Positions 53,534-55,895 of a stretch of 64,000 nt of DNA are shown piece by piece. This DNA is from Comamonas odontotermitis (GTDB lineage: Bacteria > Pseudomonadota > Gammaproteobacteria > Burkholderiales > Burkholderiaceae_C): contig NZ_JACHKZ010000003.1 in assembly GCF_014207855.1 (NCBI RefSeq), positions 124,001 to 188,000 of the forward strand, given 5' to 3'. The notes below the pieces were generated by a model. It made no database searches, had not been told where the DNA came from, and worked only from the letters and a program-made list of their open reading frames with translations. Position 1 is the stretch's first letter. Every line of letters starts with the position of its first letter. The position numbers and the translations under genes are program-made.

Positions 53534-54241
53534 ATGCAGACCGCCGGTATTTCCGCAGATTTGCTCACCCCCAACGTCAGGCACCGCTTTGTGCAGCTGT
53601 TCGGGGTGGCTGCACGCAAGTCGGTGCTCCCCTGGAAAGAGGTGCCTCGAGATCGTGCCCAATTGGTGTTGGTAGACCAGGGCATGGCCGATGTCGTTTC
53701 GTCTTTGGGCAACAGTCCTTGTGTGGTCACCGTGGGCCATGTGGGGGGCAACCTCACGGGCAATGCCTCCTGGGCCGGACGCCTGGAAGTGAACTACACG
53801 CTCAGCGACCTGATTGATACCCTGGACCGTGCAGCCGTGTTTCTGCTGGACTGGGAGGCGCGGCAAAAAGTGATCGCCAGGAGCGAACGCGCCCAGCCTA
53901 CGCCAGCCGAGGCTGCGCCAGCAGCCAAGCAGGAATACCTTCACCAGCTCAAGTCCTGGGTGTCGATGGGTGCGCCATTCAACACCGGTGCCTGCATCCG
54001 GGCGCTGGCCCTGCTGTCGCGCGAGCCCGTGTCCCTGGCCCAGATCTGTACCCATAGCGGGCTCGATTCTGCGACTGCCCGCCATCTGCTGGTGGAGCTG
54101 GGGCAGCGCGGTGTCCTGCGTGGCGTGGCCATCTCGTCACAGCGCCCAATTGCTTCTTCGGTACGCCGTGAGCCGGTACACTCCAACGGATTACTTGGCC
54201 GTTTGAGCCGATGGATCCGCGGAGGAGGTAAGGCGGCATGA
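53534..54241 (+). CDS. hypothetical protein with C-terminal winged-helix domain, GTPase/roadblock cluster
   Basis: The 235-residue protein is unrecognised in its N-terminal part (about 1-115), which is mixed alpha/beta with LVLVDQGMADVVSSLGNSPCVVTVGHVGG. After a Pro/Ala linker (118-132), the C-terminal part has a winged-helix-like segment, GACIRALALLSREPVSLAQICTHSGLDSATARHLLVELGQRGVLRG (about 152-197), and a basic tail. That segment resembles the DUF742 (CvnC) proteins of actinobacterial conservons. The gene overlaps the GTPase gene by four bases. The upstream 267-bp AT-rich gap should hold the promoter. Confidence 0.65.
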   Translation: MQTAGISADLLTPNVRHRFVQLFGVAARKSVLPWKEVPRDRAQLVLVDQGMADVVSSLGNSPCVVTVGHVGGNLTGNASWAGRLEVNYTLSDLIDTLDRAAVFLLDWEARQKVIARSERAQPTPAEAAPAAKQEYLHQLKSWVSMGAPFNTGACIRALALLSREPVSLAQICTHSGLDSATARHLLVELGQRGVLRGVAISSQRPIASSVRREPVHSNGLLGRLSRWIRGGGKAA

Positions 54242-54810
54242 TTCAGGAACTGGACTGGGGCGCGCGGCAAAAGCTGGCGTTGCCCCGCATTGCCCTGTGC
54301 GGGCCCATGGGCATTGGCAAGACCACTGCTGTGCGTTCGCTGTGTGGCGAGCTGATGTCTCATTCGGACGTACGCAATCTCGATCTTGCGGCCCATACCA
54401 AGGATTTCACCACGGTAGGCACCGAATTTGGCGAGATTGACCTCGGCGAGGGCGAGCGTGTTCAGATCTGTGGCTGCCCCGGGCAGGAGCGGTTCAGCTT
54501 TGTGCGCCAATGGGTGCTGTCGGTGTCCATGGGTGTTTTCATCATGACCGATGTGAACGCGACGAGCAGCCTTGCAGAAACCACGCATATCCTCGGTGAA
54601 ATCAGCAAGCTGGAGACGGCACCTGTCACCTTGATTCTGAGCGCGCGTGACGCCGGTGCTACACAAATTGAAACATTCGCGCAGGGCGTGTATTCTGCCG
54701 GCTATGGCGTGATTCCCGTGCTGCAAGCCGACCCCCGGGATCGCGCCCAGATGTTGGAAGTAATGAGTGTTCTAGTTTCCATGCTGTCTTTGCAAAGCGA
54801 GAATTCATGA
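54238..54810 (+). CDS. small Ras-like GTPase (MglA/CvnD type)
   Basis: The 190-residue G protein has P-loop GPMGIGKT (22-29), candidate switch I Thr in KDFTTVGTEFGEI (55-67), and a G3 motif GCPGQERFSFVRQW (79-92) in which Pro-Gly-Gln is present but the usual Asp is replaced. The G4 position reads SARD instead of NKxD (136-139), retaining Asp. This is the pattern of MglA/CvnD prokaryotic GTPases paired with roadblock proteins. It overlaps genes on both sides by four bases, giving a coupled set. Confidence 0.8.
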   Translation: MIQELDWGARQKLALPRIALCGPMGIGKTTAVRSLCGELMSHSDVRNLDLAAHTKDFTTVGTEFGEIDLGEGERVQICGCPGQERFSFVRQWVLSVSMGVFIMTDVNATSSLAETTHILGEISKLETAPVTLILSARDAGATQIETFAQGVYSAGYGVIPVLQADPRDRAQMLEVMSVLVSMLSLQSENS

Positions 54811-55205
54811 CCGCATCACAACCCATGATCCCTGCCCAGGTTGTCACCGCTGGTCAACAGGCACTCGAAAAATTGATTGGCCCCGTGGACGGGGTTCGTG
54901 TTGCTCTGCTCAGCACCCCTGATGGTTTTGAAATCGCGTCGCTGCGCACGAACAGCGAACTGCAGCTCAACCGCCTGTCGGCCATGGCCGGTTCGCTGAT
55001 GGCCATGGCTCGCGCTGTGGGCCGGGAAATCAACCACGCCGGCTGCAAGCGCCTCACATTTGAAACAGACAGTGGCGTAGTTGTGTTTCAATCGGTATCA
55101 TCCGAATTCCCATGTATCTTGTGCATGGTGCTCGACACCAGCGCAATCCTCGGCCGTGTGCTATGGGCGGCAGCGGAAGTCGGTGCAGAGATGAACAAAA
55201 CCTGA
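54807..55205 (+). CDS. Roadblock/LC7 domain protein, GTPase partner
   Basis: The 132-residue protein has a single roadblock/LC7 fold (about 15-125): LEKLIGPVDGVRVALLSTPDGFEIASL, then LSAMAGSLMAMARAVGREINHAGCKRLTFETDSGVVVFQSV. MglB/CvnB proteins of this fold act as GTPase-activating or docking partners of the adjacent GTPase. Its ATG overlaps the GTPase stop (ATGA). A second, more divergent roadblock-like gene follows after about 100 bases. Confidence 0.8.
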   Translation: MTASQPMIPAQVVTAGQQALEKLIGPVDGVRVALLSTPDGFEIASLRTNSELQLNRLSAMAGSLMAMARAVGREINHAGCKRLTFETDSGVVVFQSVSSEFPCILCMVLDTSAILGRVLWAAAEVGAEMNKT

Positions 55206-55308
55206 TGGCGGCGCCAACCTGGCGTCGGCAGGGGAGGAGCTGGCCCATGCGTTGCATTGGCCGAATGCGCCAGCGACGATAATCAGCCAGTGTGTAAAGG
55301 GGAGATAA

Positions 55309-55668
55309 ATGGCATCGGTACAAGAAGCTTTGACACAACTGCTCACCGTTGATGGCGCCATGTGTGCGGCACTGGTGGACAGTGCCAGCGGCATGTTGCT
55401 GGGCAGCGCGGGCTCAGGTCTGGATCTGGAGCTGGCTGCAGCGGGCAATACCGAAGTAGTACGCGCCAAGCTCAAGACGATGAAGTCGCTCGGTCTCAAT
55501 GACTCGATTGACGACATTCTGATCACATTGGGCACCCAATACCACATCATCCGCCCCATGGCGCAAAAGGAAGGCCTCTTCCTGTATCTGGTGCTTGACA
55601 AGCAGCGCAGCAATCTGGCGCTGTCCCGCCGCAAATGCGCGGAGGTCGAAAAGCTCGTGTCGATCTGA
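55309..55668 (+). CDS. Roadblock/LC7-like protein, second copy
   Basis: The 119-residue protein has the roadblock layout: VQEALTQLLTVDGAMCAALVDSASGMLLGSAG, then a helix (LAAAGNTEVVRAKLKTMKSL), and beta strands (DILITLGTQYHIIRPMAQKEGLFLYLVLD). It is divergent from the first copy and may heterodimerise with it or sense a different partner. AAAGGGGAGATAA precedes the ATG. It ends at a strong terminator, closing the four-gene cluster. Confidence 0.75.
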   Translation: MASVQEALTQLLTVDGAMCAALVDSASGMLLGSAGSGLDLELAAAGNTEVVRAKLKTMKSLGLNDSIDDILITLGTQYHIIRPMAQKEGLFLYLVLDKQRSNLALSRRKCAEVEKLVSI

Positions 55669-55709: not shown

Positions 55710-55738
55710 CTGCCAGTGCTTCGCTGGCAGTTTTTTTT
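55710..55738 (+). terminator. terminator of the GTPase/roadblock cluster
   Basis: CTGCCAG (55710-55716) pairs with CTGGCAG (55724-55730) over a 7-base loop, followed by eight T residues. Confidence 0.88.
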
Positions 55739-55895
55739 GTTGGTATGTGGGTTGTCCTCGTCGCGTGCGATTCTTCTTTCTGCGATGCAGATGTGCCGCG
55801 TGAGCGGCTCCAGCCCCATCGCCCCGCGTGCCTGAAAACGCACGCTGGTCCCTCGCGCTACAGCAGCAGGCCAGAGGCGTCGGCACAATACGCCG

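Follow-up and report, generated by a model that had tools for sequence, protein, structure and literature searches.

An operon of Comamonas odontotermitis that fits the Group 3 MglA systems: a conserved roadblock-fold component and a possible link to type IV pili

The bacterial GTPase systems closest to the locus considered here are the Group 3 MglA systems, described in 2014 by Wuichet and Sogaard-Andersen almost only from beta- and gamma-Proteobacteria and catalogued without a function (PMC4316618). Each combines an MglA GTPase and one or two MglB proteins with a partner whose N-terminus is receiver-like and whose C-terminus is a winged helix; the GTPases have an unusual G4 motif and an Arg in G5, and Groups 2 and 3 form separate clades (PMC4316618). 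Snodgrassella has a Group 3 mglA coupled to two mglB genes, as well as an orphan mglB of 121 aa (PMC11112851). In conservons (Cvn/AGPS; mfp), the roadblock protein MfpD is the GTPase-activating protein (GAP) and the CvnC homologue MfpC, a DUF742 protein, is the likely guanine-nucleotide exchange factor (GEF) (PMC13343842), and in Myxococcus GEF activity belongs to the RomR/RomX complex and GAP activity to MglB, which RomY stimulates (PMC9481161). Here we describe a four-gene unit, A-G-B-R, in a stretch of 64,000 nucleotides from Comamonas odontotermitis (positions 124,001 to 188,000 of contig NZ_JACHKZ010000003.1, assembly GCF_014207855.1), hereafter the window. The operon is real, and its type has been in print since 2014 (PMC4316618); what this analysis adds is the conserved component R, the tail of A, variants of the sensor and a link to type IV pili, with limits set out below for each. 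A limited literature search (Xanthomonas, Lysobacter, Neisseria, Acinetobacter and BLUF links) found no direct study of the A-G-B-R module beyond PMC4316618 and PMC11112851.

The unit occupies positions 53534-55668 of the window, with all four genes in the same direction:

53534..54241, + strand: gene A, 235 aa (open reading frame list, Pfam, structure model)
54188..54238, + strand: C-terminal tail of A, last 17 residues, a Leu/Arg amphipathic helix (hydrophobic-moment test)
54238..54810, + strand: gene G (190 aa), a Ras-like GTPase; MglA family, Group 3 type by its motifs (Pfam and motifs)
54807..55205, + strand: gene B, 132 aa, roadblock protein resembling MglB and presumed to be the GAP (Pfam Robl_LC7)
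55309..55668, + strand: gene R, 119 aa, predicted roadblock fold; its family is highly conserved and has no Pfam model
55710..55740, + strand: hairpin resembling an intrinsic terminator, with a T run, at the end of the unit (sequence scan)

As the original prediction had it, the A/G and G/B junctions are 4-base overlaps, both ATGA; 103 bases separate B from R. The same prediction placed a second roadblock-like gene at the end of the unit, before a terminator, and this agrees with the fold predicted for R and with the hairpin 3' of it (55710-55730), which is followed by eight T and is the only one of the five terminator-like sites in the window with an unbroken T run after it (shuffled sequences give a mean of 2.5 sites, sd 1.5). 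The single promoter-like site lies inside G, at 54668-54696; shuffles give 0.9, so there is no excess.

Judged by its motifs, domains and gene content, the window unit fits a Group 3 MglA system. G is a small GTPase, under 240 aa, that matches Pfam Ras with 25.6 bits (cut-off 21.6; E 1e-5) and has a P-loop, TT in switch I, PGQ and DxR. For Group 3 GTPases, GTPGQ is expected in G3 and Thr in place of the Arg finger in G2; in 40 aligned rows the TT (58-59) is invariant, and the G3 motif, GCPGQ in the window, reads GTPGQ in 24 rows, GCPGQ in 5, GVPGQ in 5, GSPGQ in 4 and GIPGQ and GLPGQ in 1 each. The G4 motif of window G is SARD, which departs from [NT]KxD, and its G5 is the Arg-bearing DPR; D165 and R167 are at least 90% conserved in the same rows. 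B, which overlaps G and so lies inside the four-gene distance set for MglB in Group 3, matches Robl_LC7 with 32.3 bits (cut-off 23; E 8.4e-8) and is the only Robl_LC7 match of the window genome at E <= 0.01. Together with the HTH_IclR match of A, these Ras and Robl_LC7 matches bear out the original description of a winged-helix protein, an MglA/CvnD-type GTPase and a roadblock protein in one unit, and A also provides the receiver-like/winged-helix neighbour typical of Group 3. The accessible text of PMC4316618 does not name R, which without a Robl_LC7 match may or may not count among the 'one or two MglB'; nor does that text contain the C-terminal helix of A, the BLUF variant, the Microbacteriaceae and Croceicoccus members or the PilT link.

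A is predicted to consist of a receiver-like domain (residues ~1-120), a Pro/Ala linker, a winged helix (~135-200), another linker and a cationic amphipathic helix (~219-231). Its AlphaFold2 model has a pLDDT of 86 overall and of ~50-60 in the C-terminal tail. The N-terminal domain had been called unrecognised in the original prediction; however, a receiver-like N-terminus is already predicted for the Group 3 partner protein in PMC4316618, and the model supports such an assignment, with weak Foldseek matches (best E 4e-3) and, in a second structure comparison, matches to REC folds with Z up to 12.0 (rmsd 2.1, 103 residues aligned). At position 48, the end of strand 3 and the phosphorylation site of receivers, 12/41 members have G and only 15/41 have D, because of which the sequence points to a likely pseudo-receiver; a phospho-receiver was judged unlikely. 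The C-terminus matches Pfam HTH_IclR above its cut-off (E 5.8e-5). In 41 members the recognition helix has a mean net charge of -0.56 and a basic majority at no position, compared with a net charge of +1 in one ArsR protein, the single control.

The tail of A follows a GLLxRLRxRLGL-like pattern. Among 63 A proteins, the window's A left out, its mean maximal hydrophobic moment was 0.653, against 0.562 (sd 0.017) in shuffled tails, 0/500 of which reached it; the corresponding moments were 0.415 for G, 0.533 for B and 0.542 for R, and the net charge of the last 25 residues was +4.0 in A, -2.1 in G, +1.0 in B and +1.9 in R. The tail is similar to those that target proteins to the membrane, for example in MinD, and we infer from its sequence a membrane-targeting or partner-binding role. 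A also varies most closely together with G: the Mantel rho of their distances over 64 loci (63 with all four genes plus the window) was 0.76, the highest of six gene pairs (B-R 0.44, B-G 0.43, A-B 0.42, G-R 0.26, A-R 0.25). For these comparisons the last 200, 140 and 120 residues of G, B and R were used, which drops extensions from alternative starts. Co-variation and a 4-base overlap of this kind are as expected for a GTPase and its direct regulator. A second pair, A'-G', without an adjoining B or R, was seen in the window genome (G000:C9:132472-132990 and the preceding gene; L038:5046-6509), where G' is 43% identical to G and A' carries a tail similar to that of A.

The original prediction had also read this unit as the layout of a conservon without the histidine kinase. 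A relation to Mgl and to conservons is upheld, since both the window unit and the conservons have an MglA-family GTPase, a roadblock GAP and a winged-helix partner gene upstream of the GTPase. The layout itself differs. Six Streptomyces plasmid conservons have the order CvnA-type gene, roadblock, DUF742, GTPase, their first gene being annotated as ATP-binding (3), nitrate/nitrite sensing (2) or hypothetical (1) and taken as CvnA from the published layout; the window unit, in contrast, is without a histidine-kinase gene, has another order, bears a receiver-like domain on its winged-helix protein and includes R, whose model found no match in the six conservon stretches. No CvnA histidine kinase gene belongs to the unit, the neighbours of which are a divergent UvrD-type helicase gene upstream of A and, downstream of R, an AEC transporter gene (Pfam Mem_trans) and then priA (named from a relative's annotation). 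The proposed search of A for DUF742 was negative: the window protein had no Pfam match to it at E up to 1, 1/41 members matched at E 0.026, and the window genome contained no DUF742 at E <= 0.001. In profile comparison the winged helix of A reached Prob 93.5 with the six DUF742 proteins together and 19-77 with single ones, four other HTH controls staying below 7; identity with DUF742 on this ground was set aside as unspecific, one ArsR control scoring 85.9. On kinase gene, gene order and DUF742, conservon membership was rejected.

RomR of Myxococcus is a response regulator, and to our knowledge the Myxococcus MglA/MglB system has no winged-helix partner; its GTPase and roadblock genes lie away from those of response regulators. 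It resembles the window unit in its GTPase with a roadblock GAP, in a bipartite GAP complex and in type IV pilus control (PMC9481161), and differs in that its GTPase belongs to Group 1, with an intrinsic Arg finger (PMC4316618).

R is roadblock-like at the level of its modelled fold and not by a Pfam match. It belongs to no Pfam family (best 0.097, Spore_YunB), no NCBIfam model scored above its cut-off, and Robl_LC7 gave no match with window R and reached E 0.091 in 1/47 members. The AlphaFold2 model, with a pLDDT of 93.4, has a roadblock fold and matches a roadblock protein of S. avermitilis (3kye, Z 17.4), M. xanthus MglB (6hjm, Z 16.9) and Ragulator subunits (Z up to 16.6); a sequence search against solved structures gave nothing convincing, and phage records contained no match. 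R is by far the most conserved of the four proteins, with a median pairwise identity of 65% over the 64 loci, compared with 39% for G, 26% for B and 19% for A, and its longest run of conserved residues is in helix 2, around AAAGNTEVVRAK. Relatives at 40-61% identity were found in Streptomyces, Nocardia, Nonomuraea, Tsukamurella and Deinococcus, and in Hymenobacter over half the length, so that they reach Actinomycetota, Deinococcota and Bacteroidota. In a plasmid collection, 20/27 records annotate R as 'hypothetical protein' and the other 7 list no gene there.

R-type domains were also found together with sensory domains. One open frame joins BLUF to an R-type domain (L205) and another joins REC-DUF4388 to one (L200); the R part of both retains an internal Met, which leaves room for a separate start or for the loss of a stop codon. 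Of eight stretches with R relatives that were opened, those of Comamonas and Agarilytica carry a G match. The order in Agarilytica is R, BLUF protein, G, B, with the BLUF protein directly upstream of G and ending in an A-like tail (SFYSKMKNFLRLG).

Further R-like genes were noted in other settings. Two tandem orphan R genes of the window genome (L090:7808-8996; G000:C14) are 66-68% identical to R and have no GTPase match nearby. In other family members (L100, L101), frames of ~430-710 aa near ComFB genes end in an R-like domain, and two of these frames run through Pfam gave no convincing match. Four Comamonadaceae loci (L096, L103, L105, L204) have an unrecognised region of ~170 aa before an R domain with 55-61% identity to R. 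An Acinetobacter wuhouensis plasmid typed as conjugative (NZ_CP033119.1, L217) has in a row a roadblock gene, an unannotated protein of 321 aa with an A-like tail, and R; its GTPase match spans the start of the record, and the module thus stands in another order on a mobile element.

The A-G-B-R layout is not a product of chance. Among the best 80 of at least 592 stretches in a scan of genome records for R, 63 also had A, G and B, and 62 of these kept the order A-G-B-R, the remaining one (L176) having its A gene downstream; the A match is weak at two loci (E 2.8e-5 and 1e-3). A further 14/80 had no G in the stretch, some through a contig end, and in 11/80 an extra roadblock gene immediately precedes R. 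Among the carriers are Comamonadaceae, Xanthomonadales, Pseudomonas, Alcanivorax, Croceicoccus and Microbacteriaceae. The nearest named record, C. odontotermitis strain WLL, has the identical four genes and order, with 88.7% DNA identity over 9.9 kb. A 373-kb record labelled as a plasmid (NZ_CP083452.1 277623-289979, L211) holds priA and a UvrD-type helicase gene, and may be a chromosome piece or a chromid.

In 299 genomes of the family, G was present in 39 (54 loci) and strong R, defined by 55% identity or more with weaker matches excluded, in 33 (52 loci). R lay downstream of G, on the same strand and within 3 kb, at 30/54 G loci in 25/299 family genomes, so the gene order whose absence from close relatives would have told against the original prediction does recur in them; 22/52 strong R loci had no G upstream within 3 kb. 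G occurred in 30/33 strong-R genomes of the family, against a base rate of 39/299. A sample of 300 genomes from the order had G in 31 and R in 13, in one only as a distant fused relative, and G occurred in 10/12 R genomes against a base rate of 31/300, a count that leaves out G091 (58-67 bits). In Microbacteriaceae, 14/18 R genomes had G, against a base rate of 20/239.

A role in surface motility had been suggested by analogy with Mgl. In 12/15 genomes searched, PilT scored above its curated cut-off, and it did so in 5/5 Microbacteriaceae carriers of the module, in which its absence had been expected. This result led to a survey of 239 Microbacteriaceae genomes, in which G was found in 20 and PilT in 117. 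PilT was present in 18/20 genomes with G, compared with 99/219 others (Fisher 9e-5, not corrected for descent), in 14/14 genomes with both R and G, and in 0/4 with R alone; the excess is moderate, since 117/239 have PilT anyway. In two close relatives, G820 and G770, the module adjoins, in divergent orientation, a type IV pilus cluster that includes a T2SSE/MshEN ATPase and PilT in both; Pfam further recognised prepilins, T2SSF, PilM and a PilO match in G820, and similarity a pilin, PilM and PilC in G770. In Curtobacterium (G590), PilT lies 19.7 kb from the module. In ten other carriers with both on a single contig, the linear distance from G to PilT was 0.28-1.8 Mb (one G locus being used for genomes with two), and in five they were on separate contigs. 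In Snodgrassella, which carries a Group 3 mgl locus, mutants in an orphan mglB form motile flares on soft agar and are at an advantage when colonising a non-native host (PMC11112851).

On these grounds we put at about 50% the probability that the unit is a Group 3 switch in which A is a GEF-like input, G the switch, B the GAP and R a shared co-roadblock, with type IV pili as the output. Because of position, co-variation and fold, A is the best candidate for the GEF, B for the GAP and R for a second roadblock. The receiver-like domain of A would read an input, probably without phosphorylation; in its place one relative has a BLUF protein. The winged helix would act on G, most likely as an exchange factor, by analogy with the proposal for the DUF742 protein MfpC, and the amphipathic helix may tether A to the membrane or to a partner. 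B would be the GAP for G; R, the second and nearly invariant roadblock, could pair with B, with itself or with a target as a shared co-regulator, and the output would most likely be a type IV pilus-dependent surface behaviour. Sequence, prediction or statistics show the gene order, the folds, the conservation, the co-variation of A with G and, in one family, the co-occurrence with PilT, while the GEF, GAP, tether, co-roadblock and pilus-output roles are inferred.

Several observations weigh against this reading. R is not bound to the module, since it occurs by itself too, in Streptomyces and Deinococcus among others. The likeness of the winged helix of A to DUF742 barely exceeds that to a single ArsR protein. 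All six gene pairs exceed 500 permutations, so that the size of rho alone separates A-G from the others, and A was aligned at 19% identity. The association of PilT with G ignores relatedness, 3/3 Croceicoccus carriers have no PilT match above the curated cut-off, and the G770 and G820 stretches, 82-93% identical in aligned DNA pieces, count as one event. Pilus ATPase, PilM and pilin were not found at E 1e-8 in 110 other stretches (the 80 best R loci, 19 others, 10 short Microbacteriaceae ones and the window), two of which are short pieces of G770 and G820 themselves; the pilus-gene queries gave matches on positive controls, and the PilC query was partly out of frame.

Other explanations bear on the individual parts. 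Wuichet and Sogaard-Andersen suggested for Group 3 systems that the protein corresponding to A is a transcription factor (PMC4316618), a receiver-like/winged-helix regulator whose DNA binding would be controlled by its GTPase and roadblock partners. The HTH_IclR match and the REC fold agree with this, but the slightly acidic recognition helix (with its one control) does not, the cationic tail and the co-variation of A with G point to a protein or membrane partner, and the variable residue at position 48 makes phosphorylation unlikely; we regard this explanation as improbable. A true conservon that has lost its histidine kinase would belong to the same broad family of GTPase, roadblock and winged-helix protein just upstream of the GTPase, and would account for the weak profile similarity to DUF742. 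Against it stand the different gene order, the added receiver-like domain, the lack of a DUF742 match in window A, the absence of R from the six conservon stretches and the separate clades of Groups 2 and 3 (PMC4316618), and we consider it very unlikely indeed.

R might also stand outside the switch, as an unrelated and generally conserved roadblock protein often sited downstream of it. The strong R loci without G upstream are consistent with this, as are the low correlations of R distances with those of G and A and the absence of a G match from five of the eight opened stretches (0/5; two Streptomyces, Deinococcus, Hymenobacter and Tsukamurella). Yet R and G co-occur strongly in three surveys and are adjacent at 30/54 G loci, and sensory domains share one frame with R-type domains, which makes this a doubtful explanation, somewhat less probable than a transcription factor role for A. 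Finally, the module may control another envelope process, such as secretion or adhesion, and pili only sometimes, which would suit the Croceicoccus carriers and the 2/20 Microbacteriaceae carriers without PilT; the PilT association and the one case of adjacency to type IV pilus genes in Microbacteriaceae, together with the soft-agar phenotype of Snodgrassella (PMC11112851), speak for pili, and we give this explanation about as little credit as that of a transcription factor. Surface motility as originally suggested thus has some independent support from PilT association and pilus cluster adjacency and some evidence against it from Croceicoccus.

In summary, our analysis offers testable roles for the parts of a Group 3 MglA switch, namely input/GEF, switch, GAP and shared roadblock, with type IV pili as the first output to test. 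It adds a fourth component, R, which is conserved across phyla yet mostly annotated as 'hypothetical protein'. Tentatively, and with well less confidence than in the switch itself, we propose that R represents an unnamed roadblock family serving in several phyla as a near-invariant hub, into which exchangeable sensors (pseudo-receiver, BLUF, REC-DUF4388) and fast-evolving GTPase/GAP pairs would plug, and that in A-G-B-R operons this hub may set type IV pilus activity at the membrane. Were R such a hub, the coupling of bacterial Ras-like switches to different sensors would be easier to understand.

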